A DNA stretch of 22,311 bases from a virus. Positions 1-19,997 of this stretch are shown piece by piece (position 1 is the stretch's first letter; every line of letters begins with the position of its first letter). Location of the stretch: positions 1 through 22,311 of the IMG/VR virus record IMGVR_UViG_3300048044_000115; one strand, 5' to 3'. Made by a program: the position numbers and the translations under genes. A model generated the notes under the pieces. That model worked only from the letters and a program-made list of their open reading frames with translations. It had not been told where the DNA came from and ran no database searches.

Positions 1-438
1 CAGCTCGTCTACGGCCTTGTGAAAATCGTCGCGCGTTCCGCCTTTGGCCATGGTCTCTTCCAGCGCGTCGCGGATCTTCGCGATCAGCCTCTGGTCGCTG
101 ACCCCAGCCACCGTGAAGGCATCGTTTCTGTATTGGCTGCTCAGCCCGTCGAAGAGATCCCGCGTGACCGGCGTCAGATTGCGCAGGTACTCGACCGCGC
201 CCTCCGGAGGCACATCGAAGCTGAAACCGACGTTGAGCGTGTCGCCCTGGGCGTCGTCGTCCGCAAAGTTCTTCAGCCGCGAGCTGGTGGCCAGGTGCAC
301 GGGACGGCGCAGCTTCTTTAGCCCGACGCCGGCGATATGCAGCCTGCCCAGCAGATTCGCAGCGGCCAGGTGGTGAGCCAGAAGATCGCCGAGCTTTGTC
401 TGCTCTGAGCGCACGAGATGGATTGAGCCGAGTGCCAA
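1..438 (-). CDS. Phage minor head protein, Mu gp30 / F-like, N-terminal part (runs off window)
   Basis: This is an open frame of 146 codons from a TTG start to the window edge with no stop, so only the N-terminal part is visible. It starts two bases after the stop of the portal gene, with a GGGGGAG ribosome site upstream. It is the gene after portal in Mu-type phages, where the minor head/head-morphogenesis protein (gp30 or F, SPP1 gp7 family) sits. The visible residues resemble the helical N-terminal half of that family: the start is ALGSIHLVRSEQTKLGD, followed by a stretch around residues 75-100 containing LNVGFSFDVPPEGAVEYL. The diagnostic C-terminal Cys/His motif would be outside the window. 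The role (a few copies near the portal, needed for head assembly) is inferred mainly from position. Confidence 0.65.
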   Translation of the reverse strand, partial: MALGSIHLVRSEQTKLGDLLAHHLAAANLLGRLHIAGVGLKKLRRPVHLATSSRLKNFADDDAQGDTLNVGFSFDVPPEGAVEYLRNLTPVTRDLFDGLSSQYRNDAFTVAGVSDQRLIAKIRDALEETMAKGGTRDDFHKAVDEL

Positions 439-439
439 G

Positions 440-1900
440 CTATTTCTCCCCCGGTGGCATGGCCGTCGCAACAATCTCGCGCACGCGGCGCGCAAAGATG
501 CCCTTGGCGTCGCCCTGCAACTGTGCAAAGAGCCTGTCGTATTGCTCCATCTCCTCGCGCATTGCTGCCTCGGCCTGGCGCTCGGCGAAGGTGGCGCTGG
601 AGCGGTCGGTGAGCGCCACAGACGGCGCGGCCGCGTTCGGCACTAGCTCCTGATCTTCCGTTTCGGTCGTAGTCAGCGGCCGGTCGTAACGGTCACTGAT
701 GTAGCCGACACTGAACTTTTTGCCCATGCGCATCAGGCCGGTGTCCACGGTGAGGGCAAGATTGAGATCCTCAGCCTCTTCGAGATCGAATTGCCAGATC
801 GGCATGGGCGCCGTTGGCCCGAAGTTCCAAAGCACCAGCGGCTTGACGAGCTGATCGTTGATGACCGATTGCAAACTGCGGCAAAGCTCGACGCTGCGCT
901 TATCCAGCGTGTCGGCATGGGTCTGGCCCTGGGCCTTCGATCCGCCGCCGCCTTCGTTGCCGAAGCTGGTCAACGTCTCGCCCATGACCCGGCGCGCGAT
1001 GGAGTACTGCATTGCCTGAAAGAAGTTTTCGTAGACCTTGGGGTCTTGAGACCGGGCTATCTTGAGCAGTTCCTGGTCATACTCGAAGCCCTTGGGAACG
1101 GCGACGGCCGTGTTGTCTCTGATGGCCTCGGCAATAGCCACCGCCTGCTGGCGCTCCGACGCATTGTCCGCATCGTTGTAATGCACCACGGCGGTGCCCG
1201 GACCCTTTTCCGCATACTGCATCCACAGCCGCTGGATGTTGCGCTTAAACCAGCTCGGCCAGAAGACTGCCTTGAGCAGCGGGCGGCCCATGCGGTTGCG
1301 GCTGCGCTTGCGATAGCTGAAGATCAGGAACTTCTCCTCGGGCATCGTTGCGCCTTGAGAGGCCCAGGGATTAGCGAGCAGTTGCAGATTGCCCACCTGC
1401 GGGTAAAAGCGATTGCCGAAGAGAAAAAGCTCCTGTGGGCAATCGCTGATGTCCACCAGCTCCGCCTGGCCCTCCGAGGTGTCGAAGATCATCTCCTGTA
1501 CGCTGAAACCGTAGCCGGGAGCATCGAGAACGCAATCCAGCACAGTGTGGAAGTCGAGTTTGCCGAGCTGCGTTTCGACGAACTCCTTTACATCCTTGGC
1601 CAGAGATGATTCATCACGCGGAGCGGGCAGCACGCTGCGATCCCGTTCGAGCACCGAGAGCTTGAGCGTATCCAGGCAGTTGGCCACATCCTCGTCTTTG
1701 TCTTCCAGCTCACGGTAGTAGGCCATAGTCTCCGGCTGGTTGTAGGTCATCGCGGCCCAGATCGACGTGGGGTTGCGCGTACCGCCGAAGGCCAGCGTAT
1801 TGCGGTAAAGTGAGATCTGCTGCATGTAGAGGCTGGTAGACGAGATCATCTCGCCTTTGGGCGGCAGCGGCGGAACGGCGGCAATCTTTTTGTTGGCCAT
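440..1900 (-). CDS. Phage portal protein, DUF935 family (Mu gp29-like)
   Basis: This is a 486-residue protein of the DUF935/Mu gp29 portal family. Such proteins form the dodecameric ring at one capsid vertex through which DNA is packaged and ejected. The start MANKKIAAVPPLPPKG at 1900 is chosen because its ATG overlaps the TGA of the terminase gene (TGATG); the frame stays open 23 codons further but only inside the terminase gene. Family features are the SIWAAMTYNQPETMAYYREL segment (about residues 45-65), the LDAPGYGFSVQEMIF stretch (about 125-140), and the MGRPLLKAVFWPSWFKR motif (about 205-220). A Gly-rich GNEGGGGSKAQGQTH loop follows (about 320-335). Length and neighbours (terminase before, minor head after) match Mu-type phages. 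Confidence 0.93.
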   Translation of the reverse strand: MANKKIAAVPPLPPKGEMISSTSLYMQQISLYRNTLAFGGTRNPTSIWAAMTYNQPETMAYYRELEDKDEDVANCLDTLKLSVLERDRSVLPAPRDESSLAKDVKEFVETQLGKLDFHTVLDCVLDAPGYGFSVQEMIFDTSEGQAELVDISDCPQELFLFGNRFYPQVGNLQLLANPWASQGATMPEEKFLIFSYRKRSRNRMGRPLLKAVFWPSWFKRNIQRLWMQYAEKGPGTAVVHYNDADNASERQQAVAIAEAIRDNTAVAVPKGFEYDQELLKIARSQDPKVYENFFQAMQYSIARRVMGETLTSFGNEGGGGSKAQGQTHADTLDKRSVELCRSLQSVINDQLVKPLVLWNFGPTAPMPIWQFDLEEAEDLNLALTVDTGLMRMGKKFSVGYISDRYDRPLTTTETEDQELVPNAAAPSVALTDRSSATFAERQAEAAMREEMEQYDRLFAQLQGDAKGIFARRVREIVATAMPPGEK

Positions 1901-3327
1901 CACAGGTACCCCTTGATTTGCGAATAAGTCGTGGGTGTCTCCGGCGTCTGGACGCCGGTCAGCACGCACGCGCCGCCGTCGCCTGCCAGATCCGCCAGAG
2001 CTTTAGCCCAGAAGGCGTCGGCGTGGGCAAAGAGCTTTTTCTTGACGCCGCCCGCGACGGCCGTGTCCACCTCGATGCGCGGCGCGTCGAAGGTGACGCC
2101 GCTGGCCGTGGCCTGGCGCTTGATCGCCTGCAGCTCGGCGCGGATCTGCGGATCGTAGGGAATACGGCTGCGCTGCTGCTCCAGGCGCTTCTTGATGCGG
2201 ATGGCAAGATCGGTCTTCATCTTCACGCCGTCATCGTTGGAGCCGCCGAAGCTCACGCCCATCAGCCGGCCTTCGTTCTCCAGATTCAGAAGATCGAAGA
2301 GGCCCACGCCCATGCCGGTCTTGTCGATGGCGCTCCGGGAAGTCATGCGAACAAGCGGATTCAGTCTCTTGCACTGCTCGGGAAAGCTCATGGCGTGCAG
2401 CTTGACGATGGCGCGGGTCCAGGCCACGTCGCCGATCTTTTCATCGAGCCACAGACATGTGGCGTCGTGATCGCGGCCCACGTCGATGCCGCTGTAGAGC
2501 GAACCGCGCGGATGGAAGTCCGGCGGCAGGTCGATGGTGGCGCCGGCATCTTCACAGGCGGCAATCAGGTCGAGAGTCAGCCAGGCCCCGGTGCTCTTGA
2601 GAAATACGCAGCAGAACTCCTGATTCCATGTGTCGTCATCGTTCAAGCCGCGGCGCATCTCTTCGATGTTGATCGGGCAACCCTCGGCCACAGCCGTGTA
2701 AACATCAAGCCAATGACCGGACCATCCATCTTTCTTTATCGGGAACTGTGTGGGGGCAACGCCCATCTCCAAGCCCAGATTGCGAGCGATGTCGAAGAAC
2801 TTGCCCTGCTCGCCGTTGGGCGTGGAGATCACTTCCAGCGAGTTGCCCAGCGCCACCTGGCGGAAGACGGCCGCAAAGATCGCGTAGCTGTCTTCGTGAT
2901 GCGCGAATTCATCAAGCACCGCGTCGCCGGGATAGCCGCGCGCCGTGCGCGGGTTGCCCGGGAGCGCAATGATGCGGCTCCCGTTCGGAAAGGCTATCCG
3001 GCTTTGAATCGCATCGATGCGGCCAAGCGCATCGACGAAATCTTCGTTGGCGATCATCTGCGCCGTGCCACCCATGAGCTGGCAGATCTTCGCGCACGTC
3101 TCTACGAATTCGATCGATTGGGCTTTCGAGGCGGAGAGCACTGTCGTCGTGCGTCCCGGCACGCGCATCGACATTTCGACGCGGCGGTATGCGGTGGCAA
3201 AGGAGTAACCGACGCGCGCGGCTTTCACCGCGATTTTGAAGCGGGAATTGTCGTCGATCCAGCGCTGCTGATACGGCCGCATCTGCAGCACAGCGGGAGG
3301 CTTGGCTATGTGCTCATTGTTATCCAT
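1900..3327 (-). CDS. Terminase large subunit (Mu gp28-like)
   Basis: The 475-residue packaging motor has an N-terminal ATPase and a C-terminal RNase H-fold nuclease. Visible motifs are a degenerate P-loop KAARVGYS at residues 35-42 (the lysine sits at the front of the loop, as in several terminases, not in GKT) and Walker B AVLDEFAHHED with D139/E140. The coupling motif VISTPN is at about 167-172, and the nuclease motif begins YSGIDVGRDHDAT with D282 as a likely metal ligand. The start overlaps the small terminase gene by 8 bases and the stop overlaps the portal start. In Mu-like phages this enzyme cuts at pac near one end and packages headful lengths with host DNA attached. The family assignment is firm; the gp28 label also rests on context. 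Confidence 0.93.
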   Translation of the reverse strand: MDNNEHIAKPPAVLQMRPYQQRWIDDNSRFKIAVKAARVGYSFATAYRRVEMSMRVPGRTTTVLSASKAQSIEFVETCAKICQLMGGTAQMIANEDFVDALGRIDAIQSRIAFPNGSRIIALPGNPRTARGYPGDAVLDEFAHHEDSYAIFAAVFRQVALGNSLEVISTPNGEQGKFFDIARNLGLEMGVAPTQFPIKKDGWSGHWLDVYTAVAEGCPINIEEMRRGLNDDDTWNQEFCCVFLKSTGAWLTLDLIAACEDAGATIDLPPDFHPRGSLYSGIDVGRDHDATCLWLDEKIGDVAWTRAIVKLHAMSFPEQCKRLNPLVRMTSRSAIDKTGMGVGLFDLLNLENEGRLMGVSFGGSNDDGVKMKTDLAIRIKKRLEQQRSRIPYDPQIRAELQAIKRQATASGVTFDAPRIEVDTAVAGGVKKKLFAHADAFWAKALADLAGDGGACVLTGVQTPETPTTYSQIKGYL

Positions 3328-5948: not shown

Positions 5949-6536
5949 TCAGGTGCCGGCCACCGCCTGGGCGACGGTCAGATTGTCCGGCCTCGCCCAC
6001 ATCGCGGCGAACTTCGCCACGAACGCCTTGGTACCCCCCGCGCCCGTCGCAAATGTCGCCGAGTTGTCCTGCCGAGCCTCCCCTTGTTCCGAGAAGTTGG
6101 CGGACCCATCCCGCACCAGGCCCGAATCGACGCAATAGCTTTTCAGGTGCATCAGAACTTTGGATTGCTTGACGCGGATCTGAACATTTTTCAAACCGAT
6201 CAGCGCGTGCAGCGGAATCCGCGCGCAAGTTACATCTCCCCGGCATTCCGCCTGCAGCTCGCCCCGGTCGAGATAGATGAACACCTCGACGCCATGCGCC
6301 GCCCGGTCCGCCAGCACTTTCACAATCGCTTCGTCCGTCAGGCTAAAAGCCGCCAGGCCGATGGTCTTGTGCGCCGAGCCGAGCGCGGCCGCGTCCTGCG
6401 TTTCCAGATTCGTCTCCGGCGAGTAGTAAGTGCCCGACGGCAACGGCTGCTGCGCATAAGCCAGGCAGCTCGCCATCCACACGGCCACGCCGAACCCCAG
6501 CGCCAGCAACACCCATCCGCGAATTTGCTTCTTCAT
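5949..6536 (-). CDS. Secreted phospholipase D-family (HKD) nuclease, Nuc/EndA-like
   Basis: A 195-residue protein with an N-terminal signal peptide (KKQIRG, then a hydrophobic core, likely cut after AYA at about 28). It carries one HKD motif: H130, K132 and D137 in HLKSYCVD, followed by GSANFSEQG with S145 and N147. This is the single-domain PLD arrangement of Nuc/EndA-type endonucleases, which dimerise to form one active site and cut DNA in the periplasm or outside the cell. HGVEVFIYLDRGE (about 81-93) matches the family's strand before the motif. The ATG at 6536 overlaps the upstream stop (ATGA). Such a secreted nuclease is not part of the Mu core. It could degrade host debris or incoming DNA, or act in lysis. 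A phospholipase activity is also possible in this fold. Confidence 0.8.
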   Translation of the reverse strand: MKKQIRGWVLLALGFGVAVWMASCLAYAQQPLPSGTYYSPETNLETQDAAALGSAHKTIGLAAFSLTDEAIVKVLADRAAHGVEVFIYLDRGELQAECRGDVTCARIPLHALIGLKNVQIRVKQSKVLMHLKSYCVDSGLVRDGSANFSEQGEARQDNSATFATGAGGTKAFVAKFAAMWARPDNLTVAQAVAGT

Positions 6537-6784
6537 AACGCCTCCATCAGGCTGAGAATCTTGCTGCTCACAAAGCCCTCTGACTTCCACCAGGGGCGCT
6601 CGGTGCAGGTGAACGCCAACTTCTGCGCGCCTTCGTCGTAGGTCCACGCGATGGTGATTTTGTCGCCCGTCGCCGTTCCCGTATTGCCCACACAGTCCGT
6701 CTTCTCCGATTGCGCCCGGATGCGCGCGCGGACCGCATGGTATCTCATCAGCGTGATCGAACTGAATGTGACGCGTACCGCCAT
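6533..6784 (-). CDS. Small hypothetical protein, paralogue of the gene at 6862-7119 (83 aa)
   Basis: An 83-residue protein of unknown function. Its second half runs G-N-T-G-T-A, then KITIAWTYDEGAQKLAFTC, and ends in a helix SSKILSLMEAL. It lines up with the neighbouring 85-residue protein, which has G-D-S-G-T-T, ITATIGWLFDGAKLSITV and a C-terminal helix AAVNKAL. Both look like a short beta-sheet domain with a terminal amphipathic helix, so the pair probably arose by tandem duplication. The start at 6784 has a GAGGG ribosome site and the stop overlaps the PLD gene start. A phage particle or immunity role cannot be decided. Confidence 0.6.
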   Translation of the reverse strand: MAVRVTFSSITLMRYHAVRARIRAQSEKTDCVGNTGTATGDKITIAWTYDEGAQKLAFTCTERPWWKSEGFVSSKILSLMEAL

Positions 6785-7806: not shown

Positions 7807-7986
7807 TTAAATGCTTTGCGCCGCGTTGAGCGCGGCGCAGATCTTGGTTGCGAGAACTTCAGCGTCCGGCGCCCATGCGGCTATCTGCACAATTGCGAAG
7901 TTCGGGTCGTCACTCCATTGCGTATCAGAGATGAGCCAATAGCGCTCGCCATGTGGCACCGGCGGGATGAGCTCGTAGCGCTTCAA
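7807..7986 (-). CDS. Small hypothetical protein downstream of lysozyme (59 aa)
   Basis: A 59-codon gene that I start at the TTG overlapping the lysozyme stop (TTGA at 7983-7986). Product: LKRYELIPPVPHGERYWLIS, then a QWSDDPNFAIVQIAAWAPDA stretch and a helix ending LNAAQSI. The frame is also open upstream as far as 8085, but that part lies inside lysozyme and is low-complexity Gly/Ser/Arg, typical of a shadow. No function is recognised. It is probably part of the lysis segment. Confidence 0.5.
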   Translation of the reverse strand: MKRYELIPPVPHGERYWLISDTQWSDDPNFAIVQIAAWAPDAEVLATKICAALNAAQSI

Positions 7987-8438
7987 GCCGTCACCGTGCC
8001 TTTCCAGAGCGCCACTTCCTCTTTGCGTCGCGCCTCCAGATCGGCCAGCTCGACTTCCTTGCCGGCTTCCATGCCGTGATCCCAACGCAGCAACTGCCCG
8101 GCCGCATCGTCGTAGTGGCCGGCGTTCAAGTCTTTGAGCAGTGTGGAATTGCAGAGGCGCGTGGGGCCCAGGTTGAAAACGAAGTCCACCAGCGCGTCGA
8201 ACTGGCCTTGGGTCAACGGAACCTTGACCAGGTGCTCGACGGCCTCTTCGGCATCGTCCACGTCGCAGGCCAGCATATGCGCGGCCAGCCTCTCGTCCAC
8301 ACCGTCGGGAAAGCTGTCGGGATGCAATAGGCGGTGGCCCCAGCCGATGGTCGGAACGCCTCCCGTGTCCAGATAGACCCTTCCCCGGAAACCCTCGCTC
8401 CGCTTGAGCAACGCCATTCCCGCCGCGCTGAATTCCAT
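7983..8438 (-). CDS. Endolysin, GH24 (T4-type) lysozyme
   Basis: A 151-residue muramidase that cuts peptidoglycan to release phage. The catalytic triad is clear: E15 in LLKRSEGFRG, D24 in YLDTGG and T30 in PTIGWGH. The family's LTQGQFDALVDFVFNLGPT segment follows (about 75-93). There is no signal peptide or SAR anchor, so it must reach the periplasm through a holin. It is separated from the holin-like gene by six genes, unlike compact lysis cassettes. The start ATG at 8438 aligns with the usual GH24 N-terminus. Confidence 0.93.
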   Translation of the reverse strand: MEFSAAGMALLKRSEGFRGRVYLDTGGVPTIGWGHRLLHPDSFPDGVDERLAAHMLACDVDDAEEAVEHLVKVPLTQGQFDALVDFVFNLGPTRLCNSTLLKDLNAGHYDDAAGQLLRWDHGMEAGKEVELADLEARRKEEVALWKGTVTA

Positions 8439-8728: not shown

Positions 8729-8988
8729 GGTGGTGGGAAGCTCCCTCTTCCTTGTTTTTCGGAGGCCGGGGATTGGAGCGTGTTACCGCACTGCCTCCAA
8801 CCCCACGGACACTCGTCTGCTCTGGCTCTCCGCCTGTCTCCTTTCGGAATTTGGCGGTGCTTGCCGTTCAGGTTAGTGTGCAGAATAGAACGCGGCTTCG
8901 CCGCGTGATGGAAGAGGTGTTCAAGGTGCGATAGCTGGAATGATGCGCGTCGTGGTGAGCGGCGAAAAGGGGCTCGATGATTGCGGAA
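8729..8988. other. Intergenic region between late block and lysogeny genes, with hairpin at 8891-8905
   Basis: No convincing gene is seen in these 260 bases. A compact hairpin CGCGGC-TTC-GCCGCG lies at 8891-8905. Read on the minus strand it is followed by TTCTATTCTG, so it may end the repressor transcript before it enters the late genes. The promoter of the leftward late block is probably here, but I see no clear -35/-10 pair, as would be expected if a phage activator is needed. Confidence 0.4.
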
Positions 8989-9594
8989 TTAAAGCAACTT
9001 CAAAATATGATCCGGGCGCGTCTGCAACCAATTTCGGCACTGTGTGCGTAACTCTTCGGATACGGGGCGTCCAATCCGTTTACGCGGAGGAACGTCGAAA
9101 TCCATGATGGGCAAAACCGAGCATCCACACATCCAGCCGTTCGGTGGAAAGATGTCTTCCCAAATTGGATCATCCGGGCGAGCGATATATTGATCAAGCG
9201 ATGAATGCTTCTTGCAGTACTGGGACATACAGTCAAGCTGCCAATAAGGCAAATCGTCTTTCGACAACTCTCTGATCTGGTTATATCGATGAGACGCGTA
9301 AATATCCAAAACAACGCTAGTGAAGAGTATCTCTGGCCATTTTCTGGAATCCGAATGTGGCGTTGCGTACTCTTGCCAACTGGATATGCAGAATGGTGCA
9401 TCGGGCGTATTGCACCAACGCCGGAAATCTCGTTCCGTCTCGCCTTTCTTTGCGCTTTTAAGGATGTGCTGAGCAATTACCGGAACCGCATCGGCGCGAT
9501 AAATTCCATCCCAACGGAGAACCTGTTCCACCATCGACATTGCGTGCTGCCCCATGTCATAGTCGGTTTCTAAGTTGAAGTTAAATCCTGCCAT
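8989..9594 (-). CDS. Stand-alone phage Mu F / SPP1 gp7 minor-head domain protein, coupled to repressor
   Basis: A 201-residue protein whose second half (about 88-163) reads as the phage Mu F/SPP1 gp7 head-morphogenesis domain (PF04233). The stretch is LDIYASHRYNQIRELS, then YWQLDCMSQYCKKHSSLD with the C, C, H and D of the usual D..TC..H..LD motif. It ends DDPIWEDIFPPNGWMCGCSV, which matches the family's DP.W...PPNGW.CRC ending, with the Arg of CRC changed to Gly. It lacks the portal-side N-terminal half of a complete minor head protein. The true minor head gene is at the left window edge. The ATG at 9594 overlaps the repressor stop (TGATG), so it should be made in the lysogen. Codon use looks more AT-rich than in the structural genes. 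Role unknown; a decoy that disturbs head assembly of other phages is a hypothesis. Confidence 0.65.
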   Translation of the reverse strand: MAGFNFNLETDYDMGQHAMSMVEQVLRWDGIYRADAVPVIAQHILKSAKKGETERDFRRWCNTPDAPFCISSWQEYATPHSDSRKWPEILFTSVVLDIYASHRYNQIRELSKDDLPYWQLDCMSQYCKKHSSLDQYIARPDDPIWEDIFPPNGWMCGCSVLPIMDFDVPPRKRIGRPVSEELRTQCRNWLQTRPDHILKLL

Positions 9595-10127
9595 CACGTT
9601 CTCACTTTCCGGTTCGATGGACTTCGGGCCTCCTGGACTTTGGCTTCGATCTGTGAGGCTTCCAGATGCCCGTTCTCCCGCCAGCTATCGTACGCCCAGG
9701 CTAAAACATCCGCCCGAATCTTCGTTGAAAAATATCCGCCGGCTTTGTTCATCGCCCTTTCCACCGCTTCAAGCACCTGCGCCAGCAATTTCGCGTCCAC
9801 CCGTTCGCTCTTCTTTCGTCCCGTCGGCGATGGGGATACAGCTTGTAGCCCTTGAACCTCGAATCCAACGCGCTCTGAGGCGCGAGCTCTCCACCATGGG
9901 CGCTCTTCTTCTGGAACCAATTCCGCCAACCTGAGGAGATTTTTAGCTGATGGAATCGCCGGCTTCCTGCTCTTTTCCCATTTAGATACAGATACTTGTG
10001 TCACTCCGCAGAATTCCGCCAAGTCTATCTGTTTCAGACGTCTAGTGTCCCGCAATGCCTTAATTTTTTGGACTAGCGACTGCTCCGCATCGAGACAGAT
10101 ACCTGTGGTTATTTTTTCGCTTGACAT
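9594..10127 (-). CDS. XRE-family phage repressor (CI/c-like)
   Basis: A 177-residue protein with a helix-turn-helix at about residues 31-52 (LKQIDLAEFCGVTQVSVSKWEK), the classic XRE/lambda-repressor type. A Trp-rich linker and a C-terminal helical part (about 110-170) that may serve oligomerisation follow. No S24 peptidase motif is seen, so induction would not be by LexA-like self-cleavage. The start MSSEK at 10127 is chosen because the frame further upstream runs through the control region. It is divergent from the early operon, and its start codon overlaps the -35 box of the early promoter. One operator copy lies inside its own codons 6-10. It should keep the transposition genes off in the lysogen and regulate itself. 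Confidence 0.85.
   Translation of the reverse strand: MSSEKITTGICLDAEQSLVQKIKALRDTRRLKQIDLAEFCGVTQVSVSKWEKSRKPAIPSAKNLLRLAELVPEEERPWWRARASERVGFEVQGLQAVSPSPTGRKKSERVDAKLLAQVLEAVERAMNKAGGYFSTKIRADVLAWAYDSWRENGHLEASQIEAKVQEARSPSNRKVRT
10099..10112. promoter_or_regulatory. Operator O1, first copy of ATACCTGYGGTTAT direct repeat
   Basis: ATACCTGTGGTTAT is repeated with one mismatch at 10131-10144, start to start 32 bp (about three helical turns). Each copy is an imperfect palindrome. This copy lies within the first codons of the repressor gene, suitable for autoregulation. Binding by the adjacent XRE protein is inferred. Confidence 0.6.
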
Positions 10128-10149
10128 CACATACCTGCGGTTATATGGT
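10121..10149 (+). promoter_or_regulatory. Early promoter (TTGACA-17 bp-TATGGT)
   Basis: TTGACA at 10121-10126, a 17-base spacer and TATGGT at 10144-10149 form a near-consensus sigma-70 type promoter pointing into the transposition operon. Transcription would begin near 10156, leaving a leader of about 45 bases before the first ATG at 10202. The -35 box overlaps the repressor start codon on the other strand. Confidence 0.65.
10131..10144. promoter_or_regulatory. Operator O2, second copy, inside the early promoter
   Basis: ATACCTGCGGTTAT matches O1 at 13 of 14 positions. It fills the spacer between the -35 and -10 boxes of the rightward early promoter and overlaps the first base of the -10 box. 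A protein bound here would exclude RNA polymerase. Its complement also contains TATAAC, which could be part of the -10 of the repressor promoter. Confidence 0.6.
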
Positions 10150-10201
10150 GATCTGGAGGCAAACAGCGTATCGAAACCCGGTTCGCCTCTGGACAGGATA
10201 T

Positions 10202-10411
10202 ATGAACGCAAACACCTTTCGCACCAAGTTGACCCGCAATATTCAGAGCCGAGTGGCTCGACAGCTCGGACTCAGCCGCTCACATTTGTGCCTTGTGGCC
10301 AATGGCCTGCGGCAGTCTCGCCAGGTTGAGATCGCCTTGGCCAAGGAATATGCACGCATCGAACGCGAAGTGCAGCGGTTCGCGCGGAAGACAGAAAGGC
10401 GCGCAGCATGA
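10202..10411 (+). CDS. Small Cro/Ner-like HTH DNA-binding protein (69 aa)
   Basis: First gene of the early operon, 69 residues. A basic start (ANTFRTKLTRNIQSRV) leads into a helix-turn-helix ARQLGLSRSHLCLVANGLRQ (about 20-39) and a charged helical tail ending TERRAA. The place (directly after the early promoter, facing the repressor) and size match Ner of Mu or Cro of lambda, which shut down the early and repressor promoters. Start at 10202 with AGGA just upstream; the frame continues upstream only through the promoter. Its stop overlaps the next start (ATGA). Confidence 0.65.
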   Translation: MNANTFRTKLTRNIQSRVARQLGLSRSHLCLVANGLRQSRQVEIALAKEYARIEREVQRFARKTERRAA

Positions 10412-10827
10412 ACAAACGCCTCGTTCTCTTTTTCGCCGCCATCGGCCAAGCCTTCCGGCTTTTGATCTTGCCTGCATCTTTGCCGGGAGCATCTCCCGCA
10501 CAGCGTTCTGAGAATCACTGGGCAGATGGGACAGTCGCTGTCTCTTTGATACCGATGTTTATTGAGATGCAGAAGATAGGGGCAGTCTCGAACTTGGGGC
10601 AGGATGCGAGACTCGATGGGGTCTGTGGGCGCGTTGCTATAAGAATGAAGATCCCGGTCGGCGATGTGGTTGAGGTCGCTGGAGGACGCCGCCACTCTGA
10701 CAAAGTTCTAGTGGCCATCGAGGATGAAAGCAGAAAGACTCTCGCTAAAATAAAAGCCTTTTATGCCGCCCGCTCTGCAAATCCATCATGGAACGCAGCC
10801 GCCTCCAAGAAAACGGGCGCGAAATGA
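10408..10827 (+). CDS. Hypothetical early protein with hydrophobic N-terminus (139 aa)
   Basis: A 139-residue product with a hydrophobic N-terminal segment (LVLFFAAIGQAFRLLILPAS) that could be a signal or membrane anchor. A beta-rich middle follows (GRVAIRMKIPVGDVVEVAGG, then KVLVAIEDESRK), and then a basic helical tail ending TGAK. No family recognised. The ATG overlaps the previous stop, and its own stop overlaps the next ATG (ATGA). Placement between the Ner-like gene and the transposase marks it as accessory cargo; it may work with the membrane phosphatase two genes downstream. Confidence 0.6.
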   Translation: MNKRLVLFFAAIGQAFRLLILPASLPGASPAQRSENHWADGTVAVSLIPMFIEMQKIGAVSNLGQDARLDGVCGRVAIRMKIPVGDVVEVAGGRRHSDKVLVAIEDESRKTLAKIKAFYAARSANPSWNAAASKKTGAK

Positions 10828-10994
10828 AAACCCTCTCCGCACGCCTCACCGCTGTCTTCACGCGCGTCTTTCTCTGGCTGCGCGCAGATATGTACCGCAC
10901 GCTGCAGGACTGGCGCACATGGGAGTCCATAAAGGCTGAACTCAAAGCCATCGAGCGTCGCGAACGCGCGACGAAGATCGGGGGTGCGAAGTGA
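10824..10994 (+). CDS. Small basic hypothetical protein (56 aa)
   Basis: A 56-residue helical, basic protein: MKTLSARLTAVFTRVFLWLR, then DMYRTLQDWRTWESIKAELK, ending KIGGAK. The first 20 residues are amphipathic with aromatic residues and could lie on a membrane. The ATG overlaps the preceding TGA, and the TGA overlaps the GTG of the PAP2 gene. The last codons double as the ribosome site of that gene. No function recognised. Confidence 0.6.
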   Translation: MKTLSARLTAVFTRVFLWLRADMYRTLQDWRTWESIKAELKAIERRERATKIGGAK

Positions 10995-11806
10995 ACCCTT
11001 TTGCATCCTTCCTGACTATTTATCCGGGCGTTGCCGTGACCGCGCTAATCGTGCCTTTGCTGGCCGTGCGCTGGTTTCTCGCTCCCGCCGCGCGCAAACA
11101 GACAGAGTGGCTTTTCGTCGCCGCGCTGTTGATCGAACCCGCGGGAATCCTCTCGCAGCTCACGGCCAATTCGCTATCGCAGTTGCGTCCGCTCAAGTTG
11201 GACGCTTATATCTATCAGTTCGACCGCCTCTTCGGCTCGCCGAGCTTTCACCTGGGCCAGCTCGTGGCCGTGCATCTCTGGCTCAGAACTCTGGTCAGCG
11301 TGAGCTACGGGCTTTTGCCCATGGCCATGCTCGGCGCCTTCGCCGCCACGCTGCTGCTGCGCCCCGAGCGGGAAGCGATTCGCGTGGCGCAGACCTTCCT
11401 GCTGAACCTCTTCGCCGCGCTCCCGATCTATTTGCTCTTTCCCGTATGCGGCCCGGCGTTCGCGTTTCCATCTTTCCCGGCACTGCCGACGGCCGGCCTT
11501 GTTCCGCATCTTCTGGCCATCTCCGCCGCGCCCAACGGAGTGCCTTCCGTTCACATGTCCAGCGCTCTTTTGGTTTTGTGGTTCCTTCGCCGTTGGAACT
11601 GGGGCCGCGCCCTCGGCGGCGTCTACGCCGCGCTGATCGTCCTCGCCACCTTAGGGTCGGGCCAACACTACCTTTTCGATCTGATCTGCGCGGTGCCTTA
11701 CACCGCAGCGGTGGTTTGGGCCGTGGATAGATTTGCCGCGCGCTCAGCGGCCAGCCAACACACAGAAACCTTTCTTGACCAGCAATTGCAAGGGGCCGCT
11801 CTTTGA
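10991..11806 (+). CDS. PAP2-superfamily membrane phosphatase, Aur1/inositolphosphotransferase-like
   Basis: A 271-residue polytopic membrane protein with about six hydrophobic segments. Two of the three PAP2 signature motifs are visible: PSVHMSSALL with S186/H188 (about 185-194) and GSGQHYLFDLICAVP with H226/D230 (about 222-236). These carry the phosphate-binding and nucleophilic histidines. The first motif (KX6RP) is not clear, as in the Aur1-like PAP2 branch. A PVCGPAFAFP stretch (about 151-160) also fits that branch. Such enzymes hydrolyse or transfer phosphate from lipid phosphates (phosphatidic acid, undecaprenyl pyrophosphate, phosphoinositol). GTG start overlaps the upstream stop, with a GGGGGTG ribosome site. 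In a phage early operon directly before the transposase this is unexpected. It may alter the host envelope, for example against superinfection. Confidence 0.8.
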   Translation: MNPFASFLTIYPGVAVTALIVPLLAVRWFLAPAARKQTEWLFVAALLIEPAGILSQLTANSLSQLRPLKLDAYIYQFDRLFGSPSFHLGQLVAVHLWLRTLVSVSYGLLPMAMLGAFAATLLLRPEREAIRVAQTFLLNLFAALPIYLLFPVCGPAFAFPSFPALPTAGLVPHLLAISAAPNGVPSVHMSSALLVLWFLRRWNWGRALGGVYAALIVLATLGSGQHYLFDLICAVPYTAAVVWAVDRFAARSAASQHTETFLDQQLQGAAL

Positions 11807-13662
11807 GCACTCAACTCTCGATTTGCTTGCCGATGTCCGTGCCTGTTGCTTCGCCTCAGCGAATTTTGCTGCCCTCGCCGCGAGACCAGGAGCAAGCCTC
11901 CCAGCGGCTCGCCGTCGTGCAGCAGATTCTGGAATATCAACGCGATCCCGCGCGGTTTGGCCGTCTGCAACTGCGAGATGGAACGCCTGTCACGAGCGCG
12001 TCCCTGATGGTGGAGTACGCCGCCGAAGCGCACAGCATCTCCCGAGGCACGCTCTACAACTGGCTGCGCGCATACAAGGCAGGCGGCTTTGCGGCGCTGG
12101 CTGACCGTAAACGAAAAGACGCGCACACTTCAAGATTCTTCGAGGCCTATCCTCGGGCCGCGTGGCTCGCCGCATTTCTTTTTTTGGACCAGCGCATGTC
12201 CTGCCGCGTCGCCCACGAGAACATCGTGAGCAACCGCGAAATGATCGAAGTCCCCCAAGAAGATTTGCCTTCATACGAGACGGTGAGAGCGTGGTTAAAA
12301 TCCATGCCGCCGTCGCTCGTCGTCTATGCCCGTGAAGGCCGCAAAGCATACCAGGAACGCATGAGCCCCTATCTGACGCGCGGCTTCACCGACGTGTACG
12401 CCAACGCTGTGTGGGTTGGGGATCACATGATCCACGACGTGGAGTGCGCCAACGATTGCTTCTCGAATGTCGAGTGGGGTTCGCCGGTCCGCATACGGCT
12501 CACCGGATGGCTCGACTATCGCTCGCGGATGCCGATGGGCGCGAGCTGGTGCTGGGAAGGCAGCTCGCGCTCTATCGCCGCCGCCATGCGCCGCGGCATT
12601 ACGAAGTACGGCCCTCCCGAATGTGTCTACGTTGACAACGGCAAGGATTATCGCAAGGTGGGCAAAGGCGCGACCCCCGGCTACATGATGGAGTCGCCAC
12701 TGGCGCCGCAGGATTGGCGCAAGGCTGAGCTTGAGTCCATCGAGGCCACCGGCTTTCTGGCGCGCGTGGGGACTGCCTTAACGCATTGCGCGCCTTATCA
12801 CGGGCAGGCGAAGCACATAGAGCGCTTCTGGGGCACCGTCCACGAGCACTTCGATAAATGCTGGCCGACATACACCACAGGCAGCCCCTTCACGCGTCCC
12901 GATTCCACTTCACTCGCGATGATGGAACACCGCAAGCTGACCCGCCATGGCCGCGTTGCCGAGTCGAAGCATCCCAAGGCTTCAGTCTTCATCGGCGCCT
13001 GCCTGGCCTGGATGGAGGAATATGCGGATTCGCCTCACACGGGAATTGGCATGGACGGCGGGACACCGCGCCAGGTATTTGAAAACAATCTCAACCCCAA
13101 CCAGCGTCCCGCGCCCGATCCGGCGACACTCGCTCTTTTAATGGCGGAACACGAGCGCAGAATCGTTCAGGAATGTGCTGTTCGTTTGAACAATCGCCGC
13201 TACGTGCCCGCTGACCAGGCCGGCTTCGCCGCGCTGCACAACTTGAATCAGTGCGACATCCTGATCGCCTACGAGCCAGGCGCGCCGGAAGACGCCGCCG
13301 CGCTCGATCTCGACGGCAACTTTATCTGCGCCCTTCAAAGCGAGGAACTCGTGCGCTTCGCGCCCAGCGACCCGCACACACAGTCGCTGATCTCCGAGAG
13401 CATGAGGCAGCGCCGCCACCTGGAAAAGCAGACGCGCGAAGCGCTGGGCACAATCAGCCTGGTTGCGCGGCAAAATGGCGCGCTCTCGCCGCTGGAGCAA
13501 ATGGCCCGGCGGCTGCAACTCCCCGCCGATACCGATATTTCTGACGTAATTACCCAGCGCAATCCCCACCTCGCAAAACTGTCCCCTGACAATCAACCCT
13601 CGAACCGGCCAGCGACGCCGGCAGAGGCCGCACGCATCTTTTTGGAGAGACAGAAAGCATGA
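11803..13662 (+). CDS. A: MuA-like DDE transposase
   Basis: A 619-residue transposase that cuts and joins phage ends during integration and replicative transposition. An N-terminal HTH (ISRGTLYNWLRAYKAGGFAALADRKRK, about 79-105) is followed by the RNase H-fold catalytic core. Its triad is D207 (VWVGDHMIHDV), D278 (CVYVDNGKDYR) and E340 (GQAKHIERFWGTVHEHF). A Mu-type beta-barrel and C-terminal region follow (about 450-619), where MuB contact is expected. Length is close to MuA (663). TTG at 11803 is chosen because it overlaps the PAP2 stop (TTGA) with AAGGGG 7 bases upstream; an ATG at 11833 is the alternative. The stop overlaps the MuB start. Confidence 0.95.
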   Translation: MSTQLSICLPMSVPVASPQRILLPSPRDQEQASQRLAVVQQILEYQRDPARFGRLQLRDGTPVTSASLMVEYAAEAHSISRGTLYNWLRAYKAGGFAALADRKRKDAHTSRFFEAYPRAAWLAAFLFLDQRMSCRVAHENIVSNREMIEVPQEDLPSYETVRAWLKSMPPSLVVYAREGRKAYQERMSPYLTRGFTDVYANAVWVGDHMIHDVECANDCFSNVEWGSPVRIRLTGWLDYRSRMPMGASWCWEGSSRSIAAAMRRGITKYGPPECVYVDNGKDYRKVGKGATPGYMMESPLAPQDWRKAELESIEATGFLARVGTALTHCAPYHGQAKHIERFWGTVHEHFDKCWPTYTTGSPFTRPDSTSLAMMEHRKLTRHGRVAESKHPKASVFIGACLAWMEEYADSPHTGIGMDGGTPRQVFENNLNPNQRPAPDPATLALLMAEHERRIVQECAVRLNNRRYVPADQAGFAALHNLNQCDILIAYEPGAPEDAAALDLDGNFICALQSEELVRFAPSDPHTQSLISESMRQRRHLEKQTREALGTISLVARQNGALSPLEQMARRLQLPADTDISDVITQRNPHLAKLSPDNQPSNRPATPAEAARIFLERQKA

Positions 13663-18745: not shown

Positions 18746-19170
18746 GGCCAAAGAAGAAGATTCTGTTGGTGGGCGCATCGGAGGACCGGCTCTCCATTCT
18801 GAAGTTCATGCTCCACACCAACGGCTACGCCGTCACGGAAGTGCTTGGCGCGGAGCCGGCGGTCGAGCATCTTCGCGCGCAAACCTACGATCTGCTGTTC
18901 TGCGATTATTCGCGATTGCCGGACATCGAGCGTCTGCTCGACCAGGCTTGGGAGATCGGCTCCGCTATGCACTCCCTGGTGTTGGCCCCAGATCTCCCGG
19001 CGTCGCCAGAGGGCCTCAACGCGGATGCCGTGCTGCTGCGCGGCGGTTGCTCGTCGTTTGCGCTGCTCGAATGGGTAAGGCGCCTCACCGCGAAGAAGCG
19101 CGGCCCACGGAAGAAGATGCCTGTTATCTCTGTGCCCGTGATGTGCGCGGAAGATCGGAGGCTTGCGTGA
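18742..19170 (+). CDS. Degenerate response-regulator receiver (REC) protein, stand-alone
   Basis: A 142-residue protein that reads along the receiver fold. Strand 1 is KKILLVGASEDRLSIL, a helix ends NGYAVTEV, and strand 3 is YDLLFCDYSRLP with the phosphoacceptor-position D55. Strand 4 is SLVLAPD, strand 5 is DAVLLRGG, and the last helix is ALLEWVRRL. The Asp pair after strand 1 that binds magnesium is replaced by Gly-Ala, the Thr/Ser of strand 4 by Ala, and the conserved Lys by R100. Normal phosphotransfer is therefore doubtful. Length is that of a single receiver plus a basic tail; there is no output domain. A host-borrowed domain used as a protein-binding module is the likely reading. Coupled to neighbours by ATGA and GTGA. 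Confidence 0.6.
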   Translation: MRPKKKILLVGASEDRLSILKFMLHTNGYAVTEVLGAEPAVEHLRAQTYDLLFCDYSRLPDIERLLDQAWEIGSAMHSLVLAPDLPASPEGLNADAVLLRGGCSSFALLEWVRRLTAKKRGPRKKMPVISVPVMCAEDRRLA

Positions 19171-19580
19171 AAGCCCTGAGCATACGAGCGCCCTGGTGGT
19201 GGTACATCCTGCACGCCGGCAAAGACATTGAGAATCGGGACTGGCCGACGCGCGTCCGCGGCCGCGTGCTGATCCACGCCAGTAAATCATGGATACAGAA
19301 AGACATCGCACTTGACGATTGGGACGCGGGAGAGATGGCCGCAGAGGCGGGTGCGGCAAACGTGCCACCACCTAATTTTCCAGAAATGCGCGAATGCGGC
19401 GGTTGCATCGTTGGCTCAGTGGAGATCGTCGATTGCGTAGCCCTCAGTTGCAGCCCATGGTTTGTCGGTAACTACGGCTTTGTGTTGCGCGATCCGGTGA
19501 CTTTTGCGACGCCCATCCCGTACAAAGGCGCGTTGGGATTCTTCGGCGTGCCAGACGGTCTGGTGAGGTCTCAGCTATGA
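19167..19580 (+). CDS. ASCH-domain protein
   Basis: A 137-residue ASCH-domain protein. The signature start KALSIRAPWWWYILHAGKDI-ENRDWPTR is followed by GRVLIHASK, GCIVGSVEIVDCV and the end YKGALGFFGVP, all in family order. ASCH proteins have a PUA-like beta-barrel that binds RNA or modified nucleosides; one bacterial branch hydrolyses N4-acetylcytidine. They are common in phage early regions with unknown roles. The GTG at 19167 overlaps the receiver stop (GTGA), and the stop overlaps the next ATG. An insertion at about 45-75 (KDIALDDWDAGEMAAEAG) is longer than in the minimal fold. Confidence 0.85.
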   Translation: MKALSIRAPWWWYILHAGKDIENRDWPTRVRGRVLIHASKSWIQKDIALDDWDAGEMAAEAGAANVPPPNFPEMRECGGCIVGSVEIVDCVALSCSPWFVGNYGFVLRDPVTFATPIPYKGALGFFGVPDGLVRSQL

Positions 19581-19783
19581 CCAGCGAGGAGCGTTCCTGC
19601 CTCGGAAAGATTCGGCACGGAAGCCAGCGCAAGGCCTGCGCCGCGCTCAATGGATCGCGGCGCAATTTCGGCGCGCTGGCTGGCGAGTTACAGGTCTATC
19701 TCTGCCGCTTCTGCAAAGGCTGGCACATCGGCCACGTCAAGCTACACCCGGAGCCGATGCGCCGGCTGCCAAGGTCTAAATGA
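19577..19783 (+). CDS. Small zinc-ribbon phage protein (68 aa)
   Basis: A 68-residue protein with one Cys near the N-terminus (SCLGKIRHG), another at C21, and a YLCRFCKGWHIGH motif (about 41-53). The last of these is the core of a small zinc-ribbon family frequent in phages and mobile elements. Likely ligands are C43, C46, H50 and H53, or an N-terminal Cys. ATG overlaps the ASCH stop (ATGA). Function unknown. Confidence 0.65.
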   Translation: MTSEERSCLGKIRHGSQRKACAALNGSRRNFGALAGELQVYLCRFCKGWHIGHVKLHPEPMRRLPRSK

Positions 19784-19811
19784 AAACAGCAACCGACAAA
19801 GGAGAACAGAG

Positions 19812-19997
19812 TTGCAAGAACACGGGTATCAACGAAATTGCCAGCATATGGGCTGTACGAACCTGATCGATCCGAAGCGGCGGACTGCGAAGTTTTGTTC
19901 GGATGCTTGTCGCCAGGCGGATGGACGCGAGATGCGGAAGAATAAGCCTCCAGTGCTTTGTTCGGTATGTAAGAAGGCCCTGGATCACAGGAAATGA
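19812..19997 (+). CDS. Small double zinc-knuckle protein, DUF2116-like (61 aa)
   Basis: A 61-residue protein from a TTG at 19812 with AAAGGAG 7 bases upstream. C10, C15 and the CSDAC pair (C29, C33) give a Cx4C...FCSDAC site like DUF2116-type knuckles. A further pair is CSVC (C50, C53). Stop overlaps the next ATG. Probably a nucleic-acid- or protein-binding zinc module; no more specific call. Confidence 0.6.
   Translation: MQEHGYQRNCQHMGCTNLIDPKRRTAKFCSDACRQADGREMRKNKPPVLCSVCKKALDHRK

Follow-up and report, generated by a model that had tools for sequence, protein, structure and literature searches.

The window analyzed here, 22,311 bases long, is a complete virus record, the record itself being a fragment of a Mu-like phage. 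From the left, its minus strand carries a truncated late MuF gene, a portal gene, a terminase gene (PF17289, 43 bits), a gene for a PLD-like protein, a lysozyme gene, a stand-alone MuF domain gene and a repressor-type HTH gene; the plus strand carries a PAP2 gene and genes for a MuA-like transposase and a MuB-like ATPase. The PLD-like protein (5949-6647, minus strand, 48.6 bits), encoded between lysozyme and terminase, has a hydrophobic N terminus by eye and relatives in several of the phages with a stand-alone gene, and the PAP2-superfamily phosphatase gene (10991-11806, plus strand, 69.7 bits) lies directly upstream of the transposase gene. The minus-strand features on which the analysis centers are as follows.

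1..528, minus strand: late MuF (minor head) gene belonging to this phage, cut short where the record ends
440..1969, minus strand: portal gene (Portal_Mu, PF06074, 237 bits), upstream of the late MuF gene
7983..8438, minus strand: phage lysozyme gene, beyond the cassette
8989..9594, minus strand: stand-alone MuF domain gene, 201 amino acids from the ATG at 9594-9592, with the stop at 8989-8991 and an alternative GTG at 9597
9592..9596, minus strand: TGATG, overlap of the repressor stop and the stand-alone start, an arrangement also found in locus L021
9594..10211, minus strand: repressor-type HTH gene (HTH_3, 36 bits; cut-off, 23), upstream of the stand-alone gene

The ATG of the stand-alone gene (9594-9592) overlaps the repressor TGA at 9596-9594, confirming the junction noticed in an earlier, sequence-only reading of this DNA. 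The minus strand between 8400 and 10500 showed no promoter-like site. Judging from its position, the lysogen most likely translates the gene from the repressor message. Its GC content is 48.9%, versus 59.7% for the window.

The stand-alone protein matched phrog_220 ("minor head protein and DNA pilot") over residues 32-173 with an E value of 6.9e-18, and a tblastn search of 50,697 phage records gave 194 with similar stretches, at least 80% of the query being covered in 51; most of the 60 listed among these 194 carry annotations for virion morphogenesis, F-like or minor head proteins. Together, these results place the homology to MuF far beyond chance. The PF04233 match anticipated in the sequence-only reading is present (E=6.7e-5), with its 24 bits lying under the gathering cut-off of 29.6, and TIGR01641 also stays below its cut-off (E=9.7e-5, 22.7 bits; cut-off, 39.65). 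Only L024 exceeded the PF04233 cut-off among the five stand-alones scanned with Pfam (L024, 41.7 bits; L132, 29.4; L023, 24.4; window, 24; L162, 14). The Pfam and NCBIfam cut-offs alone would therefore leave the window protein unnamed. By homology, the open reading frame 8992-9594 (minus strand) is a genuine stand-alone MuF (gpF/gp7) domain, as first proposed, with the six invariant residues described below adding to the phrog_220 match. No toxin family in Pfam, NCBIfam or PHROGs was matched by the window protein, in agreement with the earlier view that no toxin domain is attached. The PADLOC defense models, queried with three stand-alones (window, L132 and L162) at E<=0.1, gave no matching family.

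All 88 aligned MuF rows, the ten stand-alones among them, share residues H130, W145, P150, P151, C156 and C158 without exception, the rows having been selected for the PP..C-x-C motif. The codons concerned in the most informative columns lie at the following positions.

9121..9129, minus strand: codons of C156-G157-C158; CGC in 10 of 10 stand-alones and CRC in most late MuF proteins
9205..9207, minus strand: codon of His130, invariant in 88 of 88 MuF rows
9214..9216, minus strand: codon of Cys127; at this column 8 of 10 stand-alones have Cys, and all of the 78 late MuF rows have Arg

The Cys-His spacing is C-x2-H in eight of the ten stand-alones, C-x4-H in L132 and C-x-H in L162, and the residue pattern suggests a putative Cys/His/Cys/Cys metal site. 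The Gly that had been placed at the last position of the CRC motif is indeed present but occupies the middle of C-x-C. It had been read as a possible mark of a dead, dominant inactive copy. Gly occurs at this position in all ten stand-alone lineages and in 13 of the 103 late-type MuF open reading frames with the motif (R in 73, others in 17); Arg to Gly is therefore a family trait rather than an inactivating accident, and the former reading is abandoned. The window protein ends 43 residues beyond C-x-C. Twenty-eight columns are conserved in at least 70% of the 78 late rows, of which the stand-alones keep 16: 2 of 9 before residue 116 and 14 of 19 from residue 116 on.

A confident AlphaFold2 (AF2) model of the stand-alone was reached only with a deep alignment. 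The prediction from 88 rows gave a pLDDT of 87.9 and a pTM of 0.86, with helices between residues 18 and 110, and an earlier one from eight stand-alones gave a pLDDT of 64.6. The usual N-terminal half had been described as missing. This holds in part: about 60-100 N-terminal residues are gone relative to the late protein, but a helical N-terminal MuF part is modeled, in diverged form. Foldseek searches of the eight-sequence model against BFVD and the PDB returned nothing at E<=0.001, and no PDB chain reached E<=0.001 with the 88-row model. No MuF relative was recognized among PDB sequences, which the stand-alone matched only at E>=0.58. The best VIA match to the 88-row model, Nab2 (Z 5.5), was treated as noise.

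Stand-alone versions were found in ten lineages of one Mu-like group through IMG/VR protein scans, a MuA-anchored scan of 61 loci and HMM screens. The window protein is identical in L002, L003 and L004, and L009 is a fragment. Identity to it is 87% in L005, 85% in L006, 54% in L021, 46% in L007 and 45% in L008, and falls to 37% in L023/L022, 36% in L024, 26% in L162 and 21% in L132, whose protein is identical in contig L177. Lengths range from 185 to 242 amino acids. More distant stand-alones may be missing, because one IMG/VR relative scan covered the best 80 of 252 relatives. Further scans with L023, L024, L132 and L162 as queries added only copies of known lineages, one scan being judged by HMM. 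Ten long open reading frames (377-456 amino acids, 32.7-62.7 bits) scored slightly higher with the stand-alone HMM than with the late HMM and were classed as late by length and score, irrespective of neighbors.

The group that carries the stand-alone is known here from metagenomes alone. No close isolated phage was found either by MuA (22-26% identical among the matches listed, 8 of 19 records) or by portal (25-27% among the matches listed, 8 of 82). The L023 protein matched 116 phage records, with one place per record. The matches listed for the two queries (60 of 194 for the window protein and 30 of 116 for L023) are annotated as virion, head, portal, capsid or hypothetical proteins or are unannotated, as judged by annotation rather than by neighborhood. 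Matches in plasmids (20 of 72,556 records) are mostly annotated as phage minor head or capsid proteins, and a scan of genome contigs found only two Morganella late-type MuF genes. According to a survey, a portal or terminase gene lies near 85% of 614 phage muf genes (PMC5576092). Among the titles and abstract starts listed from open-licence PMC articles, none described a MuF gene standing alone behind a repressor.

In nine of nine lineages with visible upstream DNA, the window included, the stand-alone is preceded on its own strand by a repressor-type HTH gene; L024 falls outside this count, as its contig starts 263 bases before its stand-alone. Homologues of this subfamily are thus not confined to the late head operon. 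Five of the phages concerned supplied the repressor HMM and so match it by construction; HTH_3 was above cut-off in all seven repressors scanned with Pfam (window, L006, L007, L008, L023, L132 and L162). The repressors of L007 and L162 also have a Peptidase_S24 domain, and those of L005 and L021 are 40% and 37% identical to that of the window. No gene intervenes between repressor and stand-alone in the window, L021 and L162, one does in L005, L006, L007, L023 and L132, and two open reading frames do in L008. The intervening gene of L023 (9369-9986) is ORF6C/anti-repressor-like. Terminator-like hairpins lie directly 3' of the stand-alone in L007 (10 pairs), L008 (13) and L024 (9); no convincing terminator was found there in the window and L021, these five loci being the ones examined for such hairpins. 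Lysozyme families were found beyond the cassette in the window, L005, L006, L021, L007 and L024.

The stand-alone does not sit directly downstream of the portal gene, where a separate MuF gene follows, but behind the repressor. Late-type MuF genes of 267-305 amino acids follow the portal in L002/L003/L004, L005, L006, L021, L007, L008, L022/L023 and L024, that is, in the eight of ten lineages with the late region covered; no late MuF was seen in the DNA analyzed for L132 and L162. In L002, with a stand-alone identical to that of the window, the late gene is whole (19070-19987, 305 amino acids, PF04233 69.3 bits). The sequence-only reading had placed this phage's own minor head gene just left of the window; the gene exists, but at 1-528 (minus strand) within it, cut by the record end. 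The position outside the head operon, the coupling to the repressor and the retention of a separate late MuF are thus all borne out. As the same phage has a separate late MuF, the stand-alone does not replace an absent head subunit.

In a tree of 88 MuF domains, the ten stand-alones form one side of a branch, with SH-aLRT support of 87 against all others (not starred) and 97 against the group's own late MuF proteins, and the long branches of L132 and L162 meet in this tree. There is therefore no sign of recent duplication from each phage's late gene. The dN/dS ratios were 0.22 for window/L005, 0.23 for window/L006 and 0.10 for L007/L008, and 0.71, on very few changes, for the closest pair, L005/L006; these values indicate purifying selection in three of four close pairs. 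The stand-alones of L005 and L006 are 96% identical, and their repressors only 42%. Synonymous divergence (dS) between these loci is 0.024 for the stand-alone, 0.89 for the portal, 1.15 for the late MuF, 1.30 for the lysozyme and 3.07 for the repressor genes, and the low value for the stand-alone indicates that it moved recently between these divergent phages, independently of the head genes.

The stand-alone was detected in 9 of 52 loci that contain the repressor and at least 3 kb beyond it, requiring seven changes on the MuA tree. Shuffled distributions required a mean of 8.6, and 23 of 500 shuffles were as low as 7, so the gene is only slightly more clustered than chance; the redundant loci L115/L117, L125/L126, L149/L167 and L164/L165 were kept in this count and in that of the joint motif below. 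The late MuF proteins of L119, L122 and L155, in which no stand-alone was detected, interleave in the tree with those of phages that have one, giving no sign of self-avoidance there.

The sibling locus L116 has a MuA 92% identical to that of the window, and blastn aligned the two in twelve stretches of 73-95% identity. A block around the repressor lacks a match, and two further features lie within it or beside it.

8815..8911, minus strand: conserved noncoding leader-like element between the stand-alone and the lysis/late genes, where identity with L116 resumes
8955..10901: block without a blastn match in L116, comprising the stand-alone, the repressor and about 690 bases of the early region, flanked by stretches 84% and 95% identical
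9601..9610, minus strand: joint motif GGAAAGTGAG, located where the repressor gene ends and preceding the cargo gene

The L116 counterpart without a match (11456-13579, reverse complement) holds a Peptidase_S24-type repressor, a small gene without a Pfam match and a D12-class methylase gene; the window repressor has no S24 match in Pfam. Beyond this single large difference, the two diverge in the first 695 bases, in 645 additional bases next to MuA and in smaller gaps. The alignment thus places the stand-alone in a block exchanged, together with the repressor, between otherwise largely collinear siblings. The slot behind the repressors carries varied cargo, including some small proteins that look membrane bound or secreted by eye. 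Recurrent small cargo proteins, combining a CxxC-type motif near the N terminus (MANCKYCG...) with a hydrophobic C-terminal part, were seen by eye in L116, L132, L127, L158 and others, and genes that look like the D12-class methylase gene of L116 were seen in the slots of other loci.

The motif [ACG]GAAAGTG[AC]G had 23 hits in 138,050 slot bases, versus 10 in 1,959,218 bases elsewhere, across 56 MuA loci. It stands directly before the stand-alone in the window, L005, L006, L021, L162 and L024, and in L005 (L118) it precedes both the inserted gene and the stand-alone. The motif could serve in ribosome binding, or it could mark a recombination joint. The leader-like element lies downstream of the stand-alone in nine of ten lineages, the exception being L162, and comprises a GC hairpin, TANTCTG, an inner hairpin, often with a GAAAGGA-type loop, and CCAGAGC. 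A pattern search found it in 29 of 69 loci, with and without a stand-alone (odd hits in L125 and L126 were dropped), in 19 distinct copies. The inner hairpin appears in most single folds, with z scores of -1.2 to -4.3 relative to mononucleotide shuffles, and Rfam gave no match at gathering thresholds for eight sources. The element is possibly a late leader or a structured RNA.

The single clade, purifying selection, patchiness, movement and exchanged block together identify the stand-alone as lysogeny-cassette cargo rather than a head operon component: the gene is a lysogeny accessory encoding a diverged MuF domain, carried in an exchangeable immunity cassette of Mu-like phages. Lysogenic-conversion cargo behind phage repressors is typically accessory, lower in GC, patchy and exchanged with the immunity module. 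The stand-alone resembles it in these traits but differs in that the cargo is a virion-type domain.

The most studied MuF protein, gp7 of SPP1, is bound to the portal, is present in few copies in the head and supports the start of infection (PMC6316719, PMC5576092), and the function of the MuF domain was called unknown in 2017 (PMC5576092). Mu gpF and SPP1 gp7 (PF04233, TIGR01641, phrog_220) share the homologous domain and the invariant H130, W145, P150, P151, C156 and C158 with the stand-alone. In contrast to them, the stand-alone is shorter, lies behind a repressor rather than a portal gene, exists beside a normal gene and has CGC in all ten lineages; compared with late MuF, it usually has Cys in place of Arg three residues before the His. 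MuF polymorphic toxins use the same delivery domain in temperate phages (PMC5576092), whereas no C-terminal toxin domain was found in the stand-alone and it lies outside the packaging module.

Two published prophage proteins offer a precedent for another role. Tab, from a Mu-like prophage, blocks virion assembly of the invader and has a counter-defense gene (PMC10884400), and Tai likewise blocks invader assembly, with counter-defense genes in some Tai phages (PMC11364771). Because these systems show prophages blocking the assembly of invaders, the explanation ranked first is that the stand-alone acts against competing phages by interfering with assembly or ejection, which we regard as quite possible, if somewhat short of an even chance. 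More specifically, and to be taken as a tentative proposal, the MuF domain may have been domesticated as an immunity weapon, a swappable cassette providing a second, repressor-independent layer that poisons the portal or head of heteroimmune superinfecting phages. The short MuF form made by the resident prophage would already be waiting when a superinfecting relative starts its heads. It would occupy the portal or minor-head site of the invader, as could be expected given that portal docking is known for a MuF protein, and the invader's heads would then fail in assembly or DNA ejection. On the phage's own induction, the repressor transcript would stop, and the full-length late MuF or some antidote would take over.

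The sequence-only reading had suggested a putative decoy of this kind. The interference model is favored by the homology to minor-head proteins, the coexistence with a late MuF, the place behind repressors, the block exchanged with them, the hairpins 3' of the gene, the independent movement, the patchiness and the three low dN/dS ratios. Weighing against it are the interleaving of late MuF proteins in the tree, the dN/dS of 0.71 for L005/L006, the negative PADLOC result, the lack of a promoter-like site, the lack of a convincing terminator in the window and L021, and the points that follow. SPP1 assembly proceeds normally when gp7 is missing, and about 25% of the virions made in its absence remain able to infect (PMC6316719); given this dispensability, a decoy against MuF function alone would be weakly protective unless the portal was actively blocked. 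In addition, the loss of seven of the nine conserved N-terminal columns means that the stand-alone may no longer dock on the portal. The proposed logic, the spoiling of invader virion assembly, is that of Tab of Pseudomonas phage JBD26 (PMC10884400) and of Tai (PMC11364771). Tab works via the tape measure protein, and its gene is found between terminase genes together with one for anti-Tab (PMC10884400), whereas the stand-alone is a head domain in an immunity cassette for which no antidote was found, and the two are likened by proposed logic, not by sequence. An antidote search by gene content, in which the best 40 rows were considered and the contigs partly cover the late operon, found no gene tracking the stand-alone. 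Ranked highest were the stand-alone itself and, as explained by contig coverage, late head genes together with frames that overlap them.

Retention of the C-terminal core that is invariant in aligned MuF domains would also suit a pilot role, in which the lysogen pre-loads its first virions with the stand-alone, which is ejected and biases the next infection, e.g., toward lysogeny, or supports its establishment. MuF proteins are head components, and domains linked to them are believed to pass into the host (PMC6316719, PMC5576092, PMC5512222); in addition, the link to the repressor fits a lysogeny-related role. However, the stand-alone was not detected in 43 of the 52 loci, among them the sibling with a 92% identical MuA, and it moves between phages independently of the head genes, which makes a pilot unlikely.

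The varied content of the slot (D12 methylase in L116, the ORF6C/anti-repressor-like gene in L023 and small proteins) raises the question of whether the MuF fold has simply been recruited for a host-directed function, as in lysogenic conversion by other slot cargo. The subfamily signature, which differs from that of late MuF, is consistent with such a change of role. This is rather unlikely, as the stand-alone largely preserves the C-terminal core that head proteins conserve best (16 of 28 columns, 14 of them from residue 116 on).

The translational overlap with the repressor in the window and L021 points instead to a regulator or sensor of the immunity region, possibly binding metal or nucleic acid, which would either modulate the repressor or respond to an invader on detecting its portal or late proteins. 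The extra Cys near the invariant His and C-x-C would fit a metal site, and SPP1 gp7 is titled a DNA-binding protein in a reference cited by PMC6316719 and PMC5576092. Against this, the near-identical stand-alones of L005 and L006 lie behind repressors of 42% identity, those of L007 and L162 lie behind S24-type repressors, and one or two genes intervene in six lineages; these divergent repressors and intervening genes argue against a dedicated repressor partner. No effector domain was found in Pfam, NCBIfam or PHROGs, and a regulator of this kind is doubtful. A chance open reading frame or decaying fragment of a displaced head gene, to which the low GC content (48.9% versus 59.7%) and diverged sequence might point, is highly improbable and largely refuted by conservation: ten lineages in one clade, dN/dS of 0.10-0.23 in three pairs, a retained motif and similar lengths of 185-242 amino acids.

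The stand-alone proteins represent a lysogeny-cassette branch of the MuF family, which has been known as portal-bound head proteins and toxin carriers. If interference with invaders is their function, phages would be reusing a piece of their own head against competitors, and assembly-blocking defense would extend to the head and portal, as Tab and Tai, the two such systems found in print, are directed at the tail. The gene is also a testable candidate for how heteroimmune Mu-like phages could bring about mutual exclusion.
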